From: Salipiger sp. CCB-MM3
GTDB lineage: Bacteria > Pseudomonadota > Alphaproteobacteria > Rhodobacterales > Rhodobacteraceae
DNA length: 64,000 nt
Reading direction: 5' to 3'
NCBI RefSeq assembly: GCF_001687105.1
Contig: NZ_CP014595.1
Span: forward strand, 2,493,001-2,557,000
The notes under the pieces are model-generated. The model worked only from the letters and a program-made list of their open reading frames with translations. It made no database searches and had not been told where the DNA came from. Every line of letters starts with the position of its first letter. Within the stretch, counting starts at the first letter, position 1. Made by a program: the position numbers and the translations under genes. Below are positions 8,872 through 46,403 of this stretch, one piece after another.

Positions 8872-8896
8872 GACCTGAGCCCGCGCGTTGTATAAT
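8870..8896 (+). promoter_or_regulatory. Sigma-70-like promoter for the PBP1A gene
   Basis: A perfect TATAAT (8891-8896) lies downstream of TTGACC (8870-8875) with 15 bases between them; TTTTGA at 8868 would give 17. Transcription would begin near 8903, before the GTG start at 8925 that has its own AAAGGGG ribosome site at 8910-8915. A consensus -10 box is unusual in this GC-rich sequence. Confidence 0.55.
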
Positions 8897-8924
8897 GGGG
8901 CTGCAATCCAAAGGGGCATTGCTT

Positions 8925-11462
8925 GTGACCAGGTTCATTCTCTCGTTCTTCGGGGCCATCTTCAGCGTCATTACTCTGGGAGTTATGGCGGTCGCGCTGT
9001 CTATCGGCGCGGTCTTCTGGATCTATGGCCGCGACCTGCCAAGCCATGAAAGCCTTGCGCAATACACGCCGCCGACGATCTCGCGCATCTACTCGCAAGA
9101 AGGTCAGATCATTGACGAGTTTGCGCAGGAGCGGCGCCTCTTCACCCCGGCCGACCAGATCCCCGATCTCGTCAAGGAAGCTTTCATCTCCGCCGAGGAT
9201 AAGAACTTCTACGAGCACCACGGCTATGACGTGCGCGGCATCGCCGCCGCCGCCTTCGACGCGGTGCGCACTCGTGGCCGCGATGTCCGCGGCGCGTCGA
9301 CCATCACCCAGCAGGTGATGAAGAACTTCCTGCTCTCTGGCGACCGCAAGATCGAGCGCAAGATCAAGGAGATCATCCTAGCCTCGCGCCTCGAAGAGAC
9401 GCTGAGCAAGGACAAGATCCTCGAGCTTTATCTCAACGAGATTTTCCTCGGTCAAAACTCCTATGGCGTGACCGCTGCGGCGCAGACCTATTTCAACAAG
9501 AGCCTTTCCGAGCTTGCCCCGCATGAGGCGGCGATGCTCGCCTCGATGCCGAAAGCGCCGTCGGACTTTCACCCGGTGCGCAACAAGCAGCGCCTGCTCG
9601 ACCGCCGCAACTACGTGCTGCGCGAGATGCGCGAGAACGGCTATATCGACACGGCCACCTATGAGACCGAGGTCAGCCAGCCGCTGCGCTCGGTGCAGAA
9701 CGGCGATTTCGAGCCCTATCAGAAGTCGCTGCCGCCGCGTGATTATTTCACCGACGAGATCCGCCGCCAGCTGACCACCGAGTTCGGCGAGGGCGAGTTC
9801 TTCTCGGGCGGCCTGTCGGTGCGCGCGACGCTCGACCCCGAGATGCAGGTGGAGGCGGCGCAGTCGCTGCGCATCGCACTCGAGGATTATGACCGCAGCT
9901 TGGGCCGCTGGCGCGGCTCCGGCAAGACCATCCCCGAAGAGAGCCTCGGCTCGGAAGAGGACTGGCGCGCGGCGCTGGCGTCGGTGCCGATTGCGCGCGA
10001 CATCGACCTCGAAAGCCAGTGGCTGCCGGCGGTGGTGCTGGAGGTGGGCGACAGCCAGATGCGCCTTGGCATCGAGGACACACCGGACACGGCGGAGCGC
10101 CCCTCGGTGGTGCCGCGCGAAGACATCTCTTGGATCCGCGGCAGCTTTGCCGACAATTTCAAGCGCGGCGACGTGGTACATGTGCGCGCCATGGTCACCG
10201 ATCAGGATGGCTCGTTCATCCGCTGGACGCTGCGGCAGGTGCCGCGCGTGCAGGGCGCCTTCATGGCGATGGACGTGAACACTGGCCGGGTGATCGCCAT
10301 GCAGGGTGGCTTCAGCTACCAGAACTCGGTGTTCAACCGCGCCACGCAGGCGCTGCGCCAGCCCGGTTCCAGCTTCAAGCCCTTCGTCTACGCCGCGGCG
10401 CTGGACTCGGGGTTCTCGCCCTCCACGGTGATCATCGACGCCCCGATCGAGATCGACACGCCGCAGGGCGTCTGGCGGCCGAAGAATGCGTCGAACACCT
10501 ACTACGGCCCGACGCCGCTGCGCACCGGCATCGAGCAGTCGCGGAACCTGATGACCATCCGTCTCGCACAAGAGATCGGCATGGACACAGTGGGGCGCTA
10601 CGCCGAGAAGTTCGGGGTCTATGACCACATGGGCCGGGTGCTGGCCAACGCGCTCGGGGCGGATGAGACCACGCTCTACAAGATGATCTCGGCCTATGCG
10701 ATGTTCGCCAACGGCGGCGAGCGGGTCGAGCCGACGCTGGTTGACCGGGTGCAGGACCGTTATGGCCGGACGGTCTACAACCATGAGTATCAAAAAGGCA
10801 ACGAGCGCAGCTGCCTCGATTGCGCCGATCCGAACCTGCCGCCGGGCCGTGGCCCGGACATCCGCAACAACCGCGACCGGATCATGGATGCGGTCACCGC
10901 ATATCAGCTCACCTCGATGATGCAGGGTGTGGTGCAGCGCGGCACCGCCTCGCGCACGGTGAACCTGCCGGTGCCCACCGCGGGCAAGACCGGCACCACC
11001 AACGATGCCAAGGACGTGTGGATGCTCGGCTTCACCTCGAACATCGTGGCGGGCTGTTACATCGGCTATGACACGCCGCGCCCGCTGGGTCGGGGCGCCT
11101 CGGGCGGCGGCATGTGCGGGCCGGTGTTCAACCGTTTCATGCTCAAGGCGGTCGAGAAATACGGCGGCGGCCAGTTCAAAGTGCCGCCCGCCTGTAACTT
11201 CCTCAACATGGACCGTTTCACCGGCGCGCGTCTGGGGCCGGATGCTTCGGGGCCGAACGTGGTGGCCGAATGTTTCCGCTCGGGCGAAGAGCCGCTCTTT
11301 GGCATCCAGCTCGACGGCGGCTGGGCGATGTCGGGCAATTTCGACATGATCCAGCCCGACGGCTCGACCCGCCCGCGCGAGGTCACCACCTCCACCGGGC
11401 GCAAGGCGACGGTGGGCCCGAAGGCCTCCTTCGGCACGCTCAGCTCCGGCGGCCTCTACTGA
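8925..11462 (+). CDS. mrcA: Penicillin-binding protein 1A (bifunctional transglycosylase/transpeptidase)
   Basis: Class A PBP that polymerises glycan strands and cross-links peptides in the periplasm. I set the start at GTG 8925 (845 residues), because AAAGGGG lies nine bases upstream and an in-frame ATG at 8895 overlaps an apparent TATAAT box. One N-terminal membrane anchor (about residues 4-33) is followed by the GT51 domain (SAEDKNFYEHHG, then STITQQVMKNFLL), an OB-like insert (about residues 310-440) and the transpeptidase domain with S482-S-F-K, SRN in EQSRNL, and KTGTT. The C-terminal 70 residues look disordered. Length and order are normal for PBP1A. A strong terminator follows 30 bases after the stop. 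Confidence 0.95.
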   Translation: MTRFILSFFGAIFSVITLGVMAVALSIGAVFWIYGRDLPSHESLAQYTPPTISRIYSQEGQIIDEFAQERRLFTPADQIPDLVKEAFISAEDKNFYEHHGYDVRGIAAAAFDAVRTRGRDVRGASTITQQVMKNFLLSGDRKIERKIKEIILASRLEETLSKDKILELYLNEIFLGQNSYGVTAAAQTYFNKSLSELAPHEAAMLASMPKAPSDFHPVRNKQRLLDRRNYVLREMRENGYIDTATYETEVSQPLRSVQNGDFEPYQKSLPPRDYFTDEIRRQLTTEFGEGEFFSGGLSVRATLDPEMQVEAAQSLRIALEDYDRSLGRWRGSGKTIPEESLGSEEDWRAALASVPIARDIDLESQWLPAVVLEVGDSQMRLGIEDTPDTAERPSVVPREDISWIRGSFADNFKRGDVVHVRAMVTDQDGSFIRWTLRQVPRVQGAFMAMDVNTGRVIAMQGGFSYQNSVFNRATQALRQPGSSFKPFVYAAALDSGFSPSTVIIDAPIEIDTPQGVWRPKNASNTYYGPTPLRTGIEQSRNLMTIRLAQEIGMDTVGRYAEKFGVYDHMGRVLANALGADETTLYKMISAYAMFANGGERVEPTLVDRVQDRYGRTVYNHEYQKGNERSCLDCADPNLPPGRGPDIRNNRDRIMDAVTAYQLTSMMQGVVQRGTASRTVNLPVPTAGKTGTTNDAKDVWMLGFTSNIVAGCYIGYDTPRPLGRGASGGGMCGPVFNRFMLKAVEKYGGGQFKVPPACNFLNMDRFTGARLGPDASGPNVVAECFRSGEEPLFGIQLDGGWAMSGNFDMIQPDGSTRPREVTTSTGRKATVGPKASFGTLSSGGLY

Positions 11463-11549: not shown

Positions 11550-11610
11550 GGGGCGCTGCCCCTCTTGGCCTGCGGCCAATTCACCCCGGCGTATTTTCAA
11601 AGAGAAGAAG
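11550..11610 (+). repeat. Composite intergenic repeat, copy 1
   Basis: Hairpin 1 is GGGGC-GCT-GCCCC (11550-11562); hairpin 2 is TTGGCC-TGC-GGCCAA (11565-11579); the conserved tail CACCCCGGCGTATTTTC then AAAGAGAAGAAG ends at 11610. It follows the PBP1A gene in the same orientation. Five related copies lie elsewhere in the window. An inverted tail faces it at 11640-11661. Confidence 0.85.
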
Positions 11611-11639: not shown

Positions 11640-11661
11640 CTTCTTCTTTTTCCAAATACGC
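11640..11661 (-). repeat. Inverted tail of the composite repeat
   Basis: On the minus strand this reads GCGTATTTGG then AAAAAGAAGAAG, the tail of the composite repeat without its hairpins. It lies downstream of the minus-strand permease gene and faces copy 1, so the two tails could pair into one long stem across the convergent gene ends. Confidence 0.65.
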
Positions 11662-11771: not shown

Positions 11772-12752
11772 TCAGCGGCCGCGGATGCGTGGGTCGAGCG
11801 CGTCGCGTAGGCCGTCGCCGAGGTAGTTCACCCCCAGCACGGTCAGCGAGATGGCGATGCCGGGCAGGATCACCCGCTCGGGGAAGTCTTCCATCCGCGC
11901 CACCGCGTCAGCCAGCATCTTGCCCCAGGTCGGGAAGTCCGACGGAAAGCCCACGCCGAGGAACGACAGGGCGCTCTCGGTGATGATCGCCGTGGCGAGG
12001 CCCAGCGTCGCCGAGACCATGATCGGCGAGAGCACGTTCGGCAGCAGGTGGCGCTTGATGATCTGGAACGGCTTGGTGCCGATCGAGCGCGCCGCGAGCA
12101 CGAACTCGCGCTCTTTCAGCGCCAGCACGTCGCCGCGCACGATGCGTGCCGTGGGCATCCACGAGGTGATGCCGACAACGGTGACGATGAGGATGAACAT
12201 GCCACCCTCGGGGCCGAAGTTGGCGCGCAACGGCTGGCGGAACAGCGTCACGGCCACCAGCAGCAGTGGCAGGATCGGCAGCGACAGGAACAGGTCCGTC
12301 AGGCGCATCAGCGGGCCGTCGAGCTTGCGGAAATAGCCCGCCAGCACGCCGACGCCCGCGCCGATCACCAGCGACAGGATCATCGCCGCCCAGCCCACGG
12401 CCATCGAGGCGCGCCCGCCCGCGATCAGCTGCGAGAGGTTGTCACGGCCCAGCTGGTCGCTGCCCAGCGGATGCGCCCAGCTGGTCTTGGCGGTGCTGTC
12501 CCAGAGTGCGGTGTAGACCGGGCGCATGTCCTTGGCGCGGATGTCCAGCGCCTGCGGATCGAGCGTCCACAGATAGGGGCCGATCAGTACACCCAAGGTG
12601 ATGAAGATCAGGAAGAACCCCCCGATCATCGCGCCCTTGTGCTTGCGGAACTGGCTCCAGACGTCCTTCCACTTCGAACGCGGCGGCTTGTCCGGACCCT
12701 TGTCGCGCAGGGCCTCGATCGGGGCGGGGGATGCGGGAACGGGCTCAGTCAT
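11772..12752 (-). CDS. Peptide-type ABC transporter permease (DppC/OppC family)
   Basis: Inner-membrane subunit of a peptide/nickel-type importer, 326 residues. The ATG at 12752 overlaps the stop of the upstream permease by eight bases (ATGACTGA), indicating translational coupling. A cytoplasmic N-terminus with a Lys/Arg-rich segment leads to the first membrane helix (about residues 45-65), a periplasmic loop with the HPLGSDQLGRD motif characteristic of OppC-type permeases, and then five helices with the EAA loop (EFVLAARSIGTKPFQIIKRHLLPN) that contacts the ATPase. The C-terminus GLRDALDPRIRGR is typical. The operon also contains the second permease and the binding protein; the ATPase gene is divergent, beyond the binding-protein gene. 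Confidence 0.92.
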   Translation of the reverse strand: MTEPVPASPAPIEALRDKGPDKPPRSKWKDVWSQFRKHKGAMIGGFFLIFITLGVLIGPYLWTLDPQALDIRAKDMRPVYTALWDSTAKTSWAHPLGSDQLGRDNLSQLIAGGRASMAVGWAAMILSLVIGAGVGVLAGYFRKLDGPLMRLTDLFLSLPILPLLLVAVTLFRQPLRANFGPEGGMFILIVTVVGITSWMPTARIVRGDVLALKEREFVLAARSIGTKPFQIIKRHLLPNVLSPIMVSATLGLATAIITESALSFLGVGFPSDFPTWGKMLADAVARMEDFPERVILPGIAISLTVLGVNYLGDGLRDALDPRIRGR

Positions 12753-13782
12753 AGCGGATCCTCGGGTCGAGAAGGCCATAGAGGATGTCGGCGATCAGGT
12801 TGAAGGCCACGATCAGCACGGCAAAGATGAAGGTCAGCGTCATCACCATCGGCAGGTCATTGGCGAAGAGCGCGGTGATCAGAAGCTGGCCGATGCCGTT
12901 CACCTTGAAGACGTTCTCGGTGATGATCGCGCCGCCGAAGATCGCCGGGACGCCAAGCGCGATCACGGTGATCACCGGGATCATCGAGTTGCGCAGCACG
13001 TGGATCATCACCACCACGGCCTCGGACAGGCCCTTGGCGCGGGCGGTGCGCACATAGTCCTGATTGAGATTGTCGAGCATCGAGGCGCGCATGTAGCGCG
13101 ACAGCTGCGCGGTGGTCTGCAGCGCCAGCACCATCACCGGCATGATCATCTGCAGAAGCTGGAACTTGAAGCTTTCCCAGTCATTCACCACGTGGGTGGT
13201 GTCGTAGATCGACGGGAACCAGCCAAGGTAGACCGAAAAGATCACGATCAGCAGCGGCCCGGTGAAGAACGGCGGGATCGAGAAGCCGACCATGGTGATG
13301 AACGTCCCGGCTTGGTCAAAGACCGAATACTGCCGGTAGGCCGAGTAGATGCCGATCGGCAGGGCGATCAGCACGCCCACGACATAGCTCAGGCCAACGA
13401 CCCAGAGCGTCTGCGGGATACGCTGCAGCACGATGTCCATCACCGGCGAGCGGGTCTGCCAGGAGATCACCCGCAGCTCACCCTGATAGAGATGCGTGTC
13501 GGGCAGCCATCCAAGCAGCCAAGTGTCGCGGGTCAGCCAGTCGATAAAGATTTTCGGCTCGGTCCAGAACACCTGCACCAGCCATTTCCAGTATTGCACC
13601 AGCGCCGGCTCGCCGACGCCAAGCGCCTCGCGCATCTTCTGCTTCACCTCGGGCGGCACCGTCAGCGGCACCTGCGCCATGGGATCGCCCGGCGCAAGCT
13701 GCAGCAGCATGAAGATCACGAAGCTGATGAACAGCAGCGTCGGGACCGAAAGGACGAGGCGTCGGATCGCATAGGTCAGCAT
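12745..13782 (-). CDS. Peptide-type ABC transporter permease (DppB/OppB family)
   Basis: First permease of the same importer, 345 residues from the ATG at 13782, which has GAGG upstream. It begins MLTYAIRRLVLSVPTLL, the canonical OppB start, and contains APGDP after the first helix. The large periplasmic insert (about residues 60-135) before helix 2 is longer than in classical DppB and is shared with the longer branch of this permease family. The EAA loop reads DYVRTARAKGLSEAVVVMIHVLRNS and the C-terminus DILYGLLDPRIRYD is conserved. It overlaps the DppC-type gene and lies 279 bases after the binding-protein gene, separated from it by a hairpin. Confidence 0.92.
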   Translation of the reverse strand: MLTYAIRRLVLSVPTLLFISFVIFMLLQLAPGDPMAQVPLTVPPEVKQKMREALGVGEPALVQYWKWLVQVFWTEPKIFIDWLTRDTWLLGWLPDTHLYQGELRVISWQTRSPVMDIVLQRIPQTLWVVGLSYVVGVLIALPIGIYSAYRQYSVFDQAGTFITMVGFSIPPFFTGPLLIVIFSVYLGWFPSIYDTTHVVNDWESFKFQLLQMIMPVMVLALQTTAQLSRYMRASMLDNLNQDYVRTARAKGLSEAVVVMIHVLRNSMIPVITVIALGVPAIFGGAIITENVFKVNGIGQLLITALFANDLPMVMTLTFIFAVLIVAFNLIADILYGLLDPRIRYD

Positions 13783-18853: not shown

Positions 18854-19672
18854 GTGAGCAAAGTAATCGTTGTGACCTCGGGCAAGGGTGGCGTGGGCAA
18901 GACCACGTCCTCGGCTGCCATCAGCGCCGGTCTCGCGTCGCGCGGGCACCGTACCGTCGTGATCGACTTCGACGTGGGTCTGCGCAACCTCGACATGATC
19001 ATGGGCTGCGAACGCCGCGTGGTGTTCGACTTCATCAACGTGATCCAGGGCGACGCCAAGCTGAACCAGGCGCTGATCCGCGACCGCCGGCTCGACAATC
19101 TCTACGTGCTGCCGACCTCGCAGACCCGCGACAAGGACGCGCTGACCCAAGAGGGCGTCGAGAAGGTGCTGAACGAGCTTCGCGAAGAGTTCGACTACAT
19201 CATCTGCGACAGCCCGGCGGGCATCGAGCGCGGCGCGCAGCTGGCCATGTACTACGCCGACGAGGCGGTGGTGGTGACCAACCCCGAGGTCTCCTCGGTG
19301 CGCGACAGTGACCGGATGCTGGGCCTGCTGAGCTCGAAGACCGCCCGCGCCGAGCGCGGCGAGGAAGAGCAGATCAAGAGCCACCTGCTGCTTACCCGCT
19401 TCGACCCGAAACGCTCGGGCGAGGGCGAGATGATGTCGGTGGAGGACGTGCTGGAGATCCTCGCGATTCCGCTTCTGGGTGTGATCCCCGAAAGCCCCGC
19501 GGTGCTGCGCGCCTCGAACGTCGGTGTGCCGGTGACGCTGAACGAAAAATCCCGCGCCGCCACCGCCTATGAGGAAGCCGTCGCGCGCCTCTGCGGTGAA
19601 GAGGTGGAGATGAAGATCGAAGGGGAGAAGGTTCCCAGCTTCATGTCGCGGCTCTTTGGGAGGAGCGCATGA
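18854..19672 (+). CDS. minD: Septum site-determining ATPase MinD
   Basis: A 272-residue ParA/MinD-type ATPase that binds the membrane in its ATP form, recruits MinC and is released by MinE, producing pole-to-pole gradients. The deviant Walker A motif SGKGGVGKTT occupies residues 9-18, with the Walker A' DFDVGLRNLD and the switch DSPAGIERGA also present. The C-terminal VPSFMSRLFGR is the amphipathic membrane-targeting helix. AGGAGCC precedes the start codon GTG at 18854. The stop overlaps the minE start (ATGA). Confidence 0.96.
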   Translation: MSKVIVVTSGKGGVGKTTSSAAISAGLASRGHRTVVIDFDVGLRNLDMIMGCERRVVFDFINVIQGDAKLNQALIRDRRLDNLYVLPTSQTRDKDALTQEGVEKVLNELREEFDYIICDSPAGIERGAQLAMYYADEAVVVTNPEVSSVRDSDRMLGLLSSKTARAERGEEEQIKSHLLLTRFDPKRSGEGEMMSVEDVLEILAIPLLGVIPESPAVLRASNVGVPVTLNEKSRAATAYEEAVARLCGEEVEMKIEGEKVPSFMSRLFGRSA

Positions 19673-19947
19673 AGGTTTTCGGCTTTACCTTCAACCGCAA
19701 GCCCAAGTCGTCGGCACAGGCCAAGGAGCGGCTGCAGATCCTTCTCGCGCATGAGCGCGGGTCGGGTCCGAAGGCCGAATTCCTGCCGCTGCTGCAGCGC
19801 GACATCCTCGAGGCGATCAAGCGCTATGTCGAGGTGAGCGACGACGCGGTCGGGATTCGCATGGATTCCGTCGGCGACGTCTCGAGCCTCGAGATCAACA
19901 TCGAACTTCCTGCGCAGGAAAAGAAAAAGGTCGCGGCAAAGGGCTGA
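19669..19947 (+). CDS. minE: Cell division topological specificity factor MinE
   Basis: A 92-residue protein that stimulates MinD ATPase and so positions the division site at mid-cell. The N-terminal residues contain the membrane-contacting and MinD-binding region (SSAQAKERLQILLAHER), and the C-terminal half is the dimerising topological domain (KYVEVSD for RYVEVSD, then IRMDSVGDVSSLEINIELP). Its ATG overlaps the minD stop by four bases. It is the last gene of minCDE and is followed by composite repeat copy 2. Confidence 0.95.
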   Translation: MKVFGFTFNRKPKSSAQAKERLQILLAHERGSGPKAEFLPLLQRDILEAIKRYVEVSDDAVGIRMDSVGDVSSLEINIELPAQEKKKVAAKG

Positions 19948-20008: not shown

Positions 20009-20068
20009 GGGGGCGCTGCCCCCGTCCGCCAAGGCGGACTCCCCCGGGATATTTTCATCTAGACGAAG
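20009..20068 (+). repeat. Composite intergenic repeat, copy 2
   Basis: Hairpin 1 is GGGGGC-GCT-GCCCCC (20009-20023); hairpin 2 is GTCCGCC-AA-GGCGGAC (20024-20039); the tail CCCCCGGGATATTTTC followed by ATCTAGACGAAG ends at 20068. It follows minE in the same orientation. The tail is the most diverged of the set. Confidence 0.8.
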
Positions 20069-25389: not shown

Positions 25390-25450
25390 GGGGGCGCTGC
25401 CCCCTCGCCGCTGCGCGGCTCACCCCCGGCGTATTTTCAAAGAGAAGAAG
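25390..25450 (+). repeat. Composite intergenic repeat, copy 3
   Basis: Hairpin 1 is GGGGGC-GCT-GCCCCC (25390-25404); hairpin 2 is GCCGC-TGC-GCGGC (25407-25419); the tail CACCCCCGGCGTATTTTC then AAAGAGAAGAAG ends at 25450. It directly follows the M20 amidohydrolase gene in the same orientation. Confidence 0.85.
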
Positions 25451-37414: not shown

Positions 37415-37943
37415 GCCAGTCTACGGTCCAGAGTCTTAATGTTCCCTTTTTGTTCTTTATAAGTTCCCAGCCGTGCAGAGTCGAGTCCGCTGCTGGCGCG
37501 GGCAATTGTTCGCAGGCCCAGCGTGTCTCGGCGGCATTGCTGCCCTGACCGCTCTGGATCAGCATCAGCCCGGTGGTCTGCCCGGCCTCGGCGGCCAGTT
37601 GCAGGCGGCGCCCGGCCTTGAGCGACAGCACCTCCCCGGGCTCGGCCACCACCAGCCCCACGGCGGTGCAGCGCAGCGCCTCTTCGGCGGCCCAGAGCAG
37701 ATCGGCCTCGCTGTGGGTGCGCACCAGATGCAGCCGCGCGCCAATGCCTTCGGGCAGGCCGCGCAGCAGCGGCAGTTGCGGCGCGTGCTGCGGGGTGATC
37801 CAGATCAGCGGCCCGGCGTGGCGGCTGGCCTGAAACAGCGCAAAGCCGCGCCGCGCACGCCCTTCGGCCTCATGCACCCGGGCGGGGCAAAGGGCGAGCG
37901 GATCGGCCTCGGCAAGAGGCGCGCTGGCGGGCAAGGGGCGCAT
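37341..37943 (-). CDS. imuA: Mutasome RecA-like protein ImuA
   Basis: A 200-residue RecA-fold protein, the first gene of the SOS mutagenesis operon. Conserved blocks are VHEAEGRARRGFALFQ, GPLIWITPQHAP, LLWAAEEALRC, GLVVAEPG, LSLKAGRRLQLAAEAGQTTG and GSNAAETRW. I set the start at ATG 37943 because the perfect LexA box (37986-38000) must lie upstream of the gene; longer frames read through the box and a dispersed repeat and cannot be real. The ribosome site is weak (ACAGG). The 3' end overlaps imuB. Confidence 0.9.
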   Translation of the reverse strand: MRPLPASAPLAEADPLALCPARVHEAEGRARRGFALFQASRHAGPLIWITPQHAPQLPLLRGLPEGIGARLHLVRTHSEADLLWAAEEALRCTAVGLVVAEPGEVLSLKAGRRLQLAAEAGQTTGLMLIQSGQGSNAAETRWACEQLPAPAADSTLHGWELIKNKKGTLRLWTVDWHGETAAFHLVSAAGQRHQPAQTAR

Positions 37944-37985
37944 GATTGGACCTGTGGCAGCAGAGTCGGTGTGCGGGATGTTCAG

Positions 37986-38000
37986 GAACATTGCCAGAAC
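37986..38000 (-). promoter_or_regulatory. SOS (LexA) box upstream of imuA
   Basis: GTTC-N7-GTTC on the minus strand (GAAC ATTGCCA GAAC on the plus strand), a perfect match to the alphaproteobacterial LexA operator, 43 bases upstream of the imuA start. It implies DNA damage control of imuA-imuB-dnaE2. Confidence 0.9.
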
Positions 38001-38028
38001 ATCCGCGCCATGGGAAGCGTGCCGTAGT

Positions 38029-38051
38029 GCGTATTTAACAAAGAGAAGAAG
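38029..38051 (+). repeat. Plus-oriented tail of the composite repeat facing copy 4
   Basis: GCGTATTTAAC then AAAGAGAAGAAG, the tail alone. It is a nearly exact inverted copy of 38071-38093, so the two can form a stem of about 20 bp with a 19-base loop. It lies upstream of imuA and beyond the SOS box. Confidence 0.7.
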
Positions 38052-38071
38052 GACCGGGCGCGTGTCATGTG

Positions 38072-38134
38072 CTTCTTCTCTTTGAAAATACGCCGGGGGT
38101 GAGGCGCGCAGCGACGAGGGGGCAGCGCCCCCTC
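38072..38134 (-). repeat. Composite intergenic repeat, copy 4
   Basis: Read on the minus strand: hairpin 1 GAGGGGGC-GCT-GCCCCCTC (38134-38116), hairpin 2 GTCGC-TGC-GCGCC (one mismatch), then the tail CACCCCCGGCGTATTTTC and AAAGAGAAGAAG. It follows the minus-strand leucyltransferase gene in the same orientation, with about 115 bases between. Confidence 0.85.
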
Positions 38135-38250: not shown

Positions 38251-39063
38251 TCAGCCCCGGCTGTCGGGCAGCGAGATATTGGCCACCTGCTCGGCGATCG
38301 GATCGGTGCTCAGCGGGTGGGTCTCGGAGGCGTAATCATCATCGCCACGCATCGGCTCCCACCGACCGCGGCGGTAGATCTCCAGCGCCGAGAATTGCGC
38401 CTTGTAGCCCATCTTCGGCGAGCCGGGCACCCAGTAGCCCAAGTAGACATAGGGCAGCCCGGCCTCGCGCGCGATGTCGATGTGATCGAGGATCATCCAG
38501 GTGCCGAGCCCGGCCTTGGGCAGTTCGGGATCGTAGAAGGAATAGACCATCGACAGCCCGTCATCGAGCACGTCGGTCAGGCACACGGCGGCCAGATCGC
38601 CCCGATCGCCGTCGGTGTATTCCACCACCCGGCTGCGGATCGGGGTCTCTTCGATCATCGCGGCGAACTCGAAGATGTCCATGTCCGCCATGCCGCCATC
38701 GGCATGGCGCGCGTCGAGATAGCGGCGGAACAGCTCGAACTGGTCCTCGGTGGCCCAAGGGCTCGAGGCGCGGCGTTGCAGGAAGGCATTGCGCTTCAGC
38801 GAGCGGCGCTGGCTTTTCGACGGGGCGAAGCGCCGCACGTCGATCCGCGCCGAGAGACAGGCCGAGCACTCCGAGCAGGACGGGCGATAGAGCACATTCT
38901 GCGAGCGGCGGAAGCCCTGCTTCGAAAGACTGTCGTTGAGTTTCTCCGCGCTGTCGCCCTGCAGCGCGGTGAAGAGCTTGCGCTCCATCCGGCCCGGCAG
39001 ATAGGGGCAGGGTTGCGGCGCCGTGACGTAAAATTGCGGCGCGAGGGGCAGCGAATGGCGCAT
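38251..39063 (-). CDS. bpt: Aspartate/glutamate leucyltransferase (Bpt/Ate family)
   Basis: A 270-residue aminoacyl-tRNA-protein transferase that adds leucine from Leu-tRNA to proteins with N-terminal Asp or Glu, marking them for ClpS/ClpAP degradation. The start [14 protein letters not shown] (ATG 39063, with GGACGG upstream) is the usual one for the family; longer frames add unrelated residues. Conserved are the cysteine cluster [25 protein letters not shown] context, the block YCFLG-equivalent [20 protein letters not shown], and YSFYDP. Length is about 20 residues above the E. coli arginyl-type relatives. It is a single gene, followed by repeat copy 4. Confidence 0.9.
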
Positions 39064-45247: not shown

Positions 45248-45504
45248 AGGGCGACGCGCTCGACCCCAAGGCGCTGATCGCTGAGGCCTACCGCATCGAA
45301 GGCATCACCTCTGAAGAATGCCGCTCGATCTTCCTCGACTGGGCGCTGTCGCTGCCGGAAGGCGCGGATGTGCAGGCGGCGCTGTCGGGGCTGATCGCGC
45401 GCCATGGGGTGACCGGCCACCCGATGACGGCGGTGCTGAAGCAGGGGCTCGGCGAGGATAGGCCCCCCCGGCGGCGCGGTGGCCGCGCGGCACGGCGGCT
45501 CTGA
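45244..45504 (+). CDS. Small hypothetical protein coupled to glnE
   Basis: An 86-residue protein whose ATG overlaps the glnE stop (ATGA). It begins MKGDALDPKALIAEAYRIEG and continues with a helical, acidic body (ECRSIFLDWALSLPEGADVQAAL) and ends in a strongly basic Arg-rich tail (RPPRRRGGRAARRL). I do not recognise a named domain; the segment IEGITSEECRSIFLDWALSLP looks conserved-family-like, and the tight coupling suggests a role related to nitrogen regulation or simply co-expression. No signal peptide or membrane segment. Confidence 0.7.
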   Translation: MKGDALDPKALIAEAYRIEGITSEECRSIFLDWALSLPEGADVQAALSGLIARHGVTGHPMTAVLKQGLGEDRPPRRRGGRAARRL

Positions 45505-45521: not shown

Positions 45522-45556
45522 GCGCCTGCGGCGCGCGTATTTTCAAAGAGAAGAAG
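45522..45556 (+). repeat. Composite intergenic repeat, shortened copy 6
   Basis: Hairpin 2 GCGCC-TGC-GGCGC (45522-45534) followed by the tail GCGTATTTTC and AAAGAGAAGAAG to 45556; hairpin 1 is missing. It follows the small gene after glnE in the same orientation and faces copy 5, so their tails form an inverted repeat. Confidence 0.8.
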
Positions 45557-45591: not shown

Positions 45592-45652
45592 CTTCTTCTC
45601 TTTCCAAATACGCCGGGGGTGAGCCCGAAGGGCGAGGGGGCTGCGCCCCCTC
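45592..45652 (-). repeat. Composite intergenic repeat, copy 5
   Basis: Read on the minus strand: hairpin 1 GAGGGGGC-GCA-GCCCCCTC (45652-45634), hairpin 2 GCCC-TTC-GGGC (45633-45623), then the tail CACCCCCGGCGTATTTGG and AAAGAGAAGAAG. It lies eight bases after the minus-strand eda stop in the same orientation. Confidence 0.85.
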
Positions 45653-45660
45653 TGGCGCGA

Positions 45661-46302
45661 TCAGCGCGGCAGCGCCGCGGCTTCCTTGGCGAGTGCCACG
45701 ATGCCGTCCCAATCGCCCGCCTGCATGAGATCCTTGGGCGCGACCCACGACCCGCCGCAGCAAAGCACGTTCTTCAGCGACAGGTAATCGCCGACGTTCT
45801 TCATGCTGACGCCGCCGGTGGGGCAGAATTTGACCTGCGGGATCGGCGCGCCGATGGCCTTGAGCGCCGGGGCGCCGCCATTGGCTTCGGCGGGGAAGAA
45901 TTTCTGCACGGTGTAGCCGCGCTCGAGCAGCGCCATCGCCTCGGAGGCGGTGGCGGCGCCGGGCAGCAGCGGCAGATCCGCCGCCTCGCAGGCGTCGAGG
46001 ATCTTATCCGTCGCGCCCGGCGAGACGCCGAATTTCGCCCCGGCCTCGACCGCGGCTTTCACGTCCTCGGGGGTCAGCAGCGTGCCCGCGCCGACCACGC
46101 CGCCTTCGACCTTGGCCATCTCGCGGATCGCGTCGAGCGCCACCGGGGTGCGCAGCGTGACCTCGAGCACGGGCAGGCCGCCGGCCACCAGCGCCTCGGC
46201 CAGCGGGCGGGCATGGGCGACGTCGTCGATCACCAGCACCGGGATCACCGGGGCGAGCTTGCAGAGGGCTTCGTTGGAGCGGCTGGCGTCCTGGGGAGTC
46301 AT
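45661..46302 (-). CDS. eda: KDPG/KHG aldolase
   Basis: A 213-residue class I aldolase that splits 2-keto-3-deoxy-6-phosphogluconate into pyruvate and glyceraldehyde 3-phosphate, the last step specific to the Entner-Doudoroff pathway. The conserved E in VLEVTLRTP, the Schiff-base lysine in VQKFFPAE, and KFCPTGGVS in the phosphate-binding region are all present. It lies downstream of edd on the same strand (101 bases apart), and the two probably form an edd-eda operon. Roseobacters use this pathway as their main glycolytic route. Confidence 0.95.
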   Translation of the reverse strand: MTPQDASRSNEALCKLAPVIPVLVIDDVAHARPLAEALVAGGLPVLEVTLRTPVALDAIREMAKVEGGVVGAGTLLTPEDVKAAVEAGAKFGVSPGATDKILDACEAADLPLLPGAATASEAMALLERGYTVQKFFPAEANGGAPALKAIGAPIPQVKFCPTGGVSMKNVGDYLSLKNVLCCGGSWVAPKDLMQAGDWDGIVALAKEAAALPR

Positions 46303-46403
46303 GGGCGGGGCCTTTGTCTGGATGTCGGAAGGACCGGATCGGTCAGCTATTGAGTATTTTCAGAAAGATGAAAGGGCAAGGCCCGCGCATGTCCCGGGCA
46401 GGG

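Follow-up and report, generated by a model that had tools for sequence, protein, structure and literature searches.

The window, that is, the whole stretch of 64,000 nucleotides of Salipiger sp. CCB-MM3 DNA that was analysed (NZ_CP014595.1, a contig of 2.9 Mb, positions 2,493,001 to 2,557,000), contains a dispersed element which an earlier note had described as a composite repeat in six copies, each with a GGGGGC hairpin, a second hairpin and a tail, always lying 3' of genes and oriented as the gene just upstream. All six stretches were found again when the window sequence was checked, and their occurrence is far beyond chance. The focal copy, its parts and the other copies are the following:

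25390..25404, plus strand: hairpin 1 of the focal copy, GGGGGC-GCT-GCCCCC
25407..25419, plus strand: hairpin 2 of the focal copy, GCCGC-TGC-GCGGC, with the covarying stem
25423..25427, plus strand: second C-run of the focal copy (C5), matching in length the G-run and the first C-run
25429..25450, plus strand: tail of the focal copy, dialect 1, with GCG-TATTT, a variable spacer and AAGAGAAGAAG
11550..11610, plus strand: full copy, dialect 1, runs of 4-4-4, 3' of the PBP1A-family gene at 8895-11462
11640..11659, minus strand: tail of the TGCG class without hairpins, carrying one mismatch and facing the 11550 copy
20009..20068, plus strand: full copy, dialect 3 (GGA-TATTT-TCA-TCTAGACGAAG), 3' of the 92-codon gene at 19669-19947
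38032..38051, plus strand: hairpin-less tail, dialect 1 with a 4-nt spacer, adjoining the stop of ORF 37473-38027
38072..38134, minus strand: full copy, dialect 1, with one mismatch in hairpin 2, 3' of the arginyltransferase gene (minus strand, ending at 38251)
45522..45556, plus strand: single hairpin GCGCC/GGCGC with a dialect-1 tail, 3' of the gene ending at 45504
45592..45652, minus strand: full copy, dialect 1 (TATTTGG), 3' of the KDPG-aldolase-like gene ending at 45661

The element is real and larger than the earlier note described, and its outline has changed in several respects. A tail ending common to all six copies was not borne out, since the 20009 copy ends ATATTTTC-ATCTAGACGAAG, which is another dialect, and the 45592 copy reads TATTTGG. 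Likewise, the GGGGGC hairpin attributed to every copy is absent from 45522-45556 and has four G, not five, in the 11550 copy. The stretch at 45522-45556, taken for a shortened copy, does carry only one hairpin; its strand is plus and it faces the minus copy at 45592. Moreover, the list was incomplete, as the hairpin-less tails at 38032-38051 (plus) and 11640-11659 (minus) had been missed; the former faces the 38072 copy, and the latter lies on the same strand as the minus gene that ends at 11772.

Regarding the neighbouring genes, the 92-codon gene upstream of the 20009 copy lies after minD and is, by position, a candidate minE; the element there is also kept in relatives. The ORF at 37473-38027 (plus, 184 codons) has its stop 4 nt upstream of the tail's TATTT and had no NCBIfam match; it was missed by the codon-usage caller, so it is perhaps recently acquired or no gene. 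At window positions 46354-46373 (plus) the sequence TGAGTATTTTCAGAAAGATGAAAG lies antisense, with one minus gene on either side, and is similar to a fourth, minor dialect, GAG-TATTT-NN-GAAAGATGAAG, which occurs at two sites of the genome sample described below and in genome G244. Rfam covariance models run over the whole window at E <= 5 gave one tRNA and four hits under their family cut-offs, of which the only one overlapping a copy was RRE (38016-38110, opposite strand, 14.9 bits against a cut-off of 104). For the GlnE protein, the nearest among the 80 named loci listed, from which same-genome records may be excluded, were those of Alloyangia pacifica and Salipiger mangrovisoli, at 85-86%.

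Counts concerning gene context refer to a sample of 1.257 Mb (window included, with 5,000 masked bases left unchanged) of the 5.52-Mb genome, while pattern and model counts refer to the whole genome. The tail pattern TATTTN{4,8}AGANGAAG has 260 exact genome matches (125 forward and 135 reverse) and none in the reversed control. When no more than one mismatch was allowed across the 19 fixed positions, the sample gave 94 tails, about one per 13 kb, of which 83 are perfect, 11 have one mismatch and none has two; ten further sites, one having three mismatches and the other nine having four, were dropped as background, and the reversed sequence of the sample had no match below four mismatches. The tail is composed of an 8-nt box (GCG or GGA followed by TATTT), a variable spacer of 2-3 nt and an 11-nt box, the last occurring in three dialects in this genome: GCG-TATTT-NNN-AAGAGAAGAAG (dialect 1, 60 of the 94 tails, the form with a 4-nt spacer included), GGA-TATTT-NNN-CCAAGAGGAAG (dialect 2, 20 tails) and GGA-TATTT-NNN-TCTAGACGAAG (dialect 3, 14 tails). 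The bases preceding TATTT track the dialect in the sample with few exceptions, as they do for the two main dialects of genome G260, so that the two boxes act as one unit. In the spacer of the 50 dialect-1 copies in which it is three nucleotides long, position 1 is T in 31 and G in 19, position 2 is G in 17, C in 16, T in 12 and A in 5, and position 3 is A in 45, while all other tail positions agree in at least 48 copies. This all-or-none conservation at 19 positions, in spite of the variable spacer, points to selection on the sequence.

The tail is the core of the element and the hairpin part is optional. The hairpin-1 string occurs 54 times in the sample, and in 50 of these cases a tail lies no more than 75 nt away (of the remaining four, two are extras in hairpin rows and two precede the minor fourth dialect); 52 of the 54 are intergenic; the upstream part parses as hairpin 1 plus a C-run for 59 of the 94 tails and does not for the other 35, so the hairpins, formerly regarded as the heart of the element, give way to the tail. 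The covariance-model search that the earlier note had proposed was carried out with a model built from 24 two-hairpin copies of the same genome, which match by construction. It succeeded within that genome, with at least 150 matches (149 of those listed at E <= 6.1e-5), some of the listed ones being shorter than the model with the second hairpin missing, but no match was obtained under stricter filters in 57 further genomes of the class, among which was one from the same family.

Where present, the optional part comprises a G_n hairpin, usually a second hairpin, and then C_n. The 53 nt upstream of 73 copies (mostly those with G before the box) fold with a mean of -26.8 kcal/mol, compared with -15.5 for the intergenic background, and the 21 copies with T before the box, which are without the C-run, fold at -21.2, still better than background. 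When 31 distinct inter-run segments (from 47) were taken, unfiltered for pairing, a stem of 4-8 bp was found in 29, the other two having only 3 bp; the mean best stem was 5.4 bp, against 4.6 after swapping halves between copies of the same length, the highest of 500 swaps giving 5.1. In a gap-free alignment of 11 copies, 10 of them chosen because their stem measured at least 4 bp and the other being the window's 38072 copy, 54 of the 55 cells of hairpin 2 pair and four of its five pairs change on both sides, while slid versions of the alignment had 45-69% of cells pairing over the whole structure. The claim that hairpin 2 is a selected structure is thus upheld by stems above the swap controls and by the paired cells; that its stem still pairs in every copy holds as a rule, with one exception, a T-C mismatch in GTCGC/GCGCC of the 38072 copy (the one cell of the 55). 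Hairpin 1 is invariant in the 11-copy set and hence uninformative in this respect.

A new finding is that the G-run, the first C-run and the second C-run before the tail have matched lengths. Among the 59 parsed elements these are 5-5-5 in 37, 4-4-4 in nine and 6-6-6 in one, and the two C-runs are equal in 54, a correlation reached by none of 20,000 permutations. The 4-4-4 copies are found in all three dialects, with differing second stems. Elements of other species and genomes have equal C-runs in 27 of 30 cases, in a parse that favours a G-run equal to the first C-run, so that only the match of the second C-run is independent there. The simplest reading of the length match suggests that the G-run may pair with either C-run; since the fold program prefers the first, the second pairing state would be transient. 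A mutational route, by misaligned copying between runs, would also need pairing between the G-run and the C-runs.

The place of the tails relative to genes was assessed over the sample gaps of at least 40 bp, comprising 418 tandem, 182 divergent and 124 convergent ones, with gene calls from a simple retrained codon-usage caller, so that single contexts may be wrong; for 16 exceptions within an earlier set of 63 tails, missed ORFs were checked. Convergent gaps hold 41 of 91 tails while making up 17% of gaps (p 6e-10, by gap count), and divergent gaps hold three of the 91 against 25% of gaps (p 3e-8). An orientation table had been proposed by the earlier note, according to which every copy runs with the gene upstream. 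In this table 31 tandem sense tails agree with it and the 41 convergent ones are uninformative, but 16 are tandem antisense, three divergent and three overlap a called gene. The view of a 3'-end element therefore stands as regards place (convergent excess and divergent deficit), while strict gene orientation is reduced to a weak bias (31:16, p 0.04). A tail in a convergent gap follows a co-directed gene whichever way it points, and this partly accounts for the six copies having all seemed to conform. As for the antisense tandem tails, 13 of 16 are nearer to the stop of the next gene than to the start of the upstream gene, and 15 of 16 are perfect. Tandem tails occupy gaps of at least 100 bp in 46 of 47 cases and none of the 406 gaps below 50 bp, which are mostly too short for one. 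A co-directed tail also lies within 200 nt of two of the 14 tRNA genes, so the signal is not tied to translation. A plasmid search matched eight records, five of which were opened; all three having a gene table show a sense copy within 12 bases of a stop codon, the genes in question being folD, a polymerase gene and phnK, the last of these within a row of phn genes. The Loktanella phnK-phnL copy occupies a 70-bp gap inside an apparent operon.

These placements bear on an explanation at the RNA level, in which the element would serve processing or stability in the manner of REP hairpins, the hairpins blocking 3'-5' exonucleases after cleavage at the UAUUU box and the purine box aiding the binding of a nuclease or RNA chaperone. 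Stable hairpins with kept pairing do lie directly upstream of the tail, the three annotated copies begin at most 12 bases from the stop codon, one of them within a gene row, and RUAUUU fits the preference of RNase E for purine-N-A/U-U-U. Nevertheless, nuclease sites are generally loose, whereas the 19 tail positions are nearly invariant and the 11-nt box is strict; furthermore, the 35 tails without parsed hairpin 1 and C-run, the 16 antisense and three divergent copies and the genus dialects are not accounted for, and we regard this explanation as unlikely, although worth retaining.

Tails frequently occur as close pairs. Within 1 kb, the sample contains 18 facing pairs, none back-to-back and one in the same direction, and 16 of the 18 facing pairs are 8-45 nt apart. 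In two relatives of the same genus, with 100 and 50 places listed, 14 and seven facing pairs and nothing else were seen within 220 nt, which brings the window's genus (the sample plus the places listed in the two relatives) to 39 facing, none back-to-back and one in the same direction. Six genomes of other genera gave seven facing, four same-direction and two back-to-back pairs among the 304 places listed, so the facing rule is strict only in the window's genus. The dialect is identical in 15 of the 18 facing pairs (p 0.002), and tails of the TG class are paired more often (12 of 21, against 23 of 73; p 0.04).

Close inverted pairs at gene ends are reported for the DNA uptake sequences of Neisseriaceae and Pasteurellaceae (DUS/USS), which are likewise polar high-copy words with dialects, in the available portions of four papers (PMC3630211, PMC2397512, PMC13020248, PMC5217627). 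A signal of this type for uptake or recombination, maintained by biased uptake and in part incorporated into terminators, would agree with a short polar word present in hundreds of copies, with few one-mismatch and no two-mismatch copies, and with dialects that differ between genomes, as well as with the closely spaced inverted pairs. Most DUS are described as intergenic, which would also agree, and their density in meningococci is given as about one per 1.2-1.5 kb (PMC2397512, in the part available); intragenic DUS are called common in the accessible text of another paper (PMC3630211). In contrast, the present element is almost never inside genes (three of 94 tails overlap a called gene), is about ten times sparser at one per 13 kb, has several dialects per genome and is tied to a two-hairpin part. 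This explanation also leaves the hairpins and the 3'-end polarity unexplained, and it appears rather improbable.

The element resembles intrinsic (Rho-independent) terminators in having GC hairpins and a short T-rich stretch at transcript ends, and differs from them in that its T-tract is limited to TATTT and leads into a fixed 11-nt box, for which a terminator has no need. Where both hairpins are present, the C-run and GG separate hairpin 2 from TATTT, the hairpin ending 10-12 nt before it, and terminator-like hits on TATTT itself numbered 19 around the 94 tails, many by pairing other than that of hairpins 1 and 2. In convergent gaps a canonical terminator was found at 13 of 38 tail-bearing gene ends and at 77 of 172 without tails (p 0.28), and in tandem gaps at 13 of 30 tail-bearing ends against 75 of 337 (p 0.014, an excess). 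On the simplest terminator model, tails and canonical terminators should exclude each other, and this was not found in the sample. At distances of 41-105 nt upstream of tails there are twelve terminator-like hits, and the tails concerned would seldom be transcribed. Downstream of the tails no stable hairpin was found, mean folds (-15.7 and -14.6) being near the intergenic background of -14.2, although 17 terminator-like hits lie 42-54 nt past the start of TATTT, many with a stem starting at the tail's GAAG. A plain terminator is disfavoured because hairpin 2 is set off from TATTT, the T-tract is short and terminators co-occur or lie upstream.

Two side observations concern the same sequences. 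In about a dozen tails, mostly of dialect 1, the tail's own GAAG(AAG) is the 5' foot of a canonical terminator stem. Separately, in the same genome (L030, L034, L044, around position 1480) some tails have a single CCTGCC-TCC-GGCGGG hairpin directly before GGATATTT or GCGTATTT, and those tails look like an ordinary intrinsic terminator joined to a dialect box.

Some of these data could also be read at the DNA level, the tail being a site of chromosome organisation (for gyrase, a nucleoid protein or a roadblock protein) that is tolerated at gene 3' ends and has no direct role in RNA. Antisense copies are conserved as well as sense ones, some tails lie beyond terminator-like hits or after tRNA genes, and a variable spacer between two fixed boxes resembles a protein site. 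Kept stem pairing and the facing pairs in the window's genus point instead to transcription, and we hold an organising role to be fairly improbable. A KOPS-like strand bias was judged unlikely, because the 100 plus-strand copies listed span the whole of the sequence labelled C1. A coding or read-through tag, mimicry of a Shine-Dalgarno sequence and an antisense promoter were further readings taken into consideration.

The element extends to relatives within the window's family (Rhodobacterales). The own-dialect pattern was found in all 19 other genomes of the same genus (10-148 matches, with 0-2 in the controls), and seven of 17 genomes from other genera of the family had at least 20 matches. 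Across 237 genomes from the other families in the class the top count was 23, with a control of 23, and the best ratio at 10 hits or more was 13 against a control of 4; two further family members drawn alongside them had two and one matches. The suggestion of a roseobacter element is therefore supported for the own-dialect pattern, which showed no comparable excess in these genomes outside the family. A dialect-free pattern, with the threshold set at no fewer than 20 hits and a threefold excess over the control, was clearly enriched in 65 of 120 family genomes (the own and one same-genus genome included), while 55 fell below this threshold; the totals were 4411 matches against 416 in the control. 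This confirms that similar sequences occur in other genomes, as had been surmised. Moreover, Paracoccus tails (copies L246, L248 and L249) end GAAAG, not GAAG, so that patterns based on GAAG underestimate the spread. Spelling differs among these genomes: among the matches listed, the main one is [GA]ACCAGAAGAAG in G264, TCCGAAAGAAG in G300 and ACCCAAAGAAG in G348, while G253 has AAGAGAAGAAG and CCTAGAAGAAG, and G260 has two main spellings, linked to GA- or GG-TATTT.

Orthologous sites were read at two genes and one gap. Four of the five readable relatives keep the element at the 3' end of the gene that follows minD, and in the fifth it is degraded; two of the four have CCTAGAAGAAG replacing TCTAGACGAAG and two have one change in TATTT. 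Downstream of the amidohydrolase gene it is plain in four of 19 relatives of the genus and degenerate in two, and none was found in the up to 240 nt inspected for the other 13. Of four relatives inspected at the gap following glnE, one has retained the plus tail, its spacer changed, together with a minus tail of another dialect; no tail was found in the other three. Some sites are thus inherited while their spelling changes in concert, which calls for a trans-acting factor or drive; the dialect change at orthologous sites fits co-evolution with such a factor. Palindrome-like boxes were also noticed in relatives, in L187 downstream of an amidohydrolase orthologue and in L106 at about 13080-13200: they read TATTTCCACCATGTGGAAG, and TATTTTCGCCTAGGCGAAAG compared with TATTTNNNTCTAGACGAAG, the changes between these last two preserving the palindrome.

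The turnover at the amidohydrolase site, together with many intergenic, hairpin-bearing copies, is what could be expected of a recently spread mobile REP or MITE family. REP/BIME elements lie at gene 3' ends and are rare between divergent genes, a likeness that extends to dispersed intergenic hairpin repeats as such. However, the conserved part is here a tail of 19-22 nt and not a palindrome, stems and spacer vary among copies while the boxes stay fixed, no two-mismatch copies exist, and the element persists at one orthologous site in four of five readable relatives. The profile PF01797 for the Y1 (RAYT-type) transposase had no match in the own genome, while matching in five of 14 control genomes, on which basis RAYT/REP mobility was rejected. 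Recent mobility is accordingly a very unlikely explanation. The element is set apart from both DUS/USS and REP because a defining feature of each was looked for and not found.

Near-identical tags at gene ends, spelled according to lineage, suggest an undescribed signal that is read sequence-specifically at transcript ends. We tentatively favour the reading that the element marks the 3' ends of transcription units as a lineage-specific, factor-assisted transcription-end signal, a function proposed from the sequence data. The tail would be directional, and its 11-nt box would be read by a putative lineage-specific DNA- or RNA-binding factor; the hairpins and the short T-rich box would weaken the elongating polymerase, which the box-bound factor would then halt, and facing tails between transcription units would close both directions. 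In this process the G-run may swap its C-run partner, so that a helix forms beside the T-rich box. Such a reading is weakened because canonical terminators co-occur instead of being replaced, because the 47 tandem copies include 16 that run antisense to the genes on both sides and are equally conserved, because pair polarity is looser in other genera, because the Loktanella phnK-phnL copy sits in an operon-like row, and because 55 of 120 family genomes miss the enrichment threshold.

The layout has a parallel in the Sal-box/TTF-I and Reb1 systems, which are protein-assisted polar terminators of eukaryotic RNA polymerase I: there too a short box, polar, sequence-specific and similar in length, comes after a T-rich stretch, although the present element is bacterial. 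To our knowledge, no bacterial counterpart factor has been described for termination of this kind. A bolder and decidedly speculative version, which we think improbable as a whole, would be a sequence-coded bacterial termination in which a bipartite tag ends part of the family's transcription units, tag and factor dialects co-evolve, the layout is like that of RNA polymerase I terminators, and the G_n strand is exchanged, pairing with the first C_n and then with the second.

In full-text literature searches, no published account of the element was found among the papers listed, judged by title and the start of the abstract; subscription journals were largely outside these searches and an earlier description is possible. 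The available part of the TerminatorNet account, which counted the most frequent words of predicted terminators, mentions uptake words for no families other than Neisseriaceae and Pasteurellaceae (PMC13020248).

What has been found is a countable signal with hundreds of copies, which marks gene ends across many genera of a large and ecologically important bacterial family, and whose lineage-specific spelling has changed in concert. Should it be an uptake signal instead of a transcription-end tag, this would be such a code for a group in which the literature searches found none described. The dialects open the question to experiment, as a tag from one species can be exchanged for that of another. 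If a factor does read the tag, these bacteria would possess a sequence-coded, factor-assisted way of ending transcription, or of protecting transcript ends, beyond the textbook pair of intrinsic and Rho-dependent termination.
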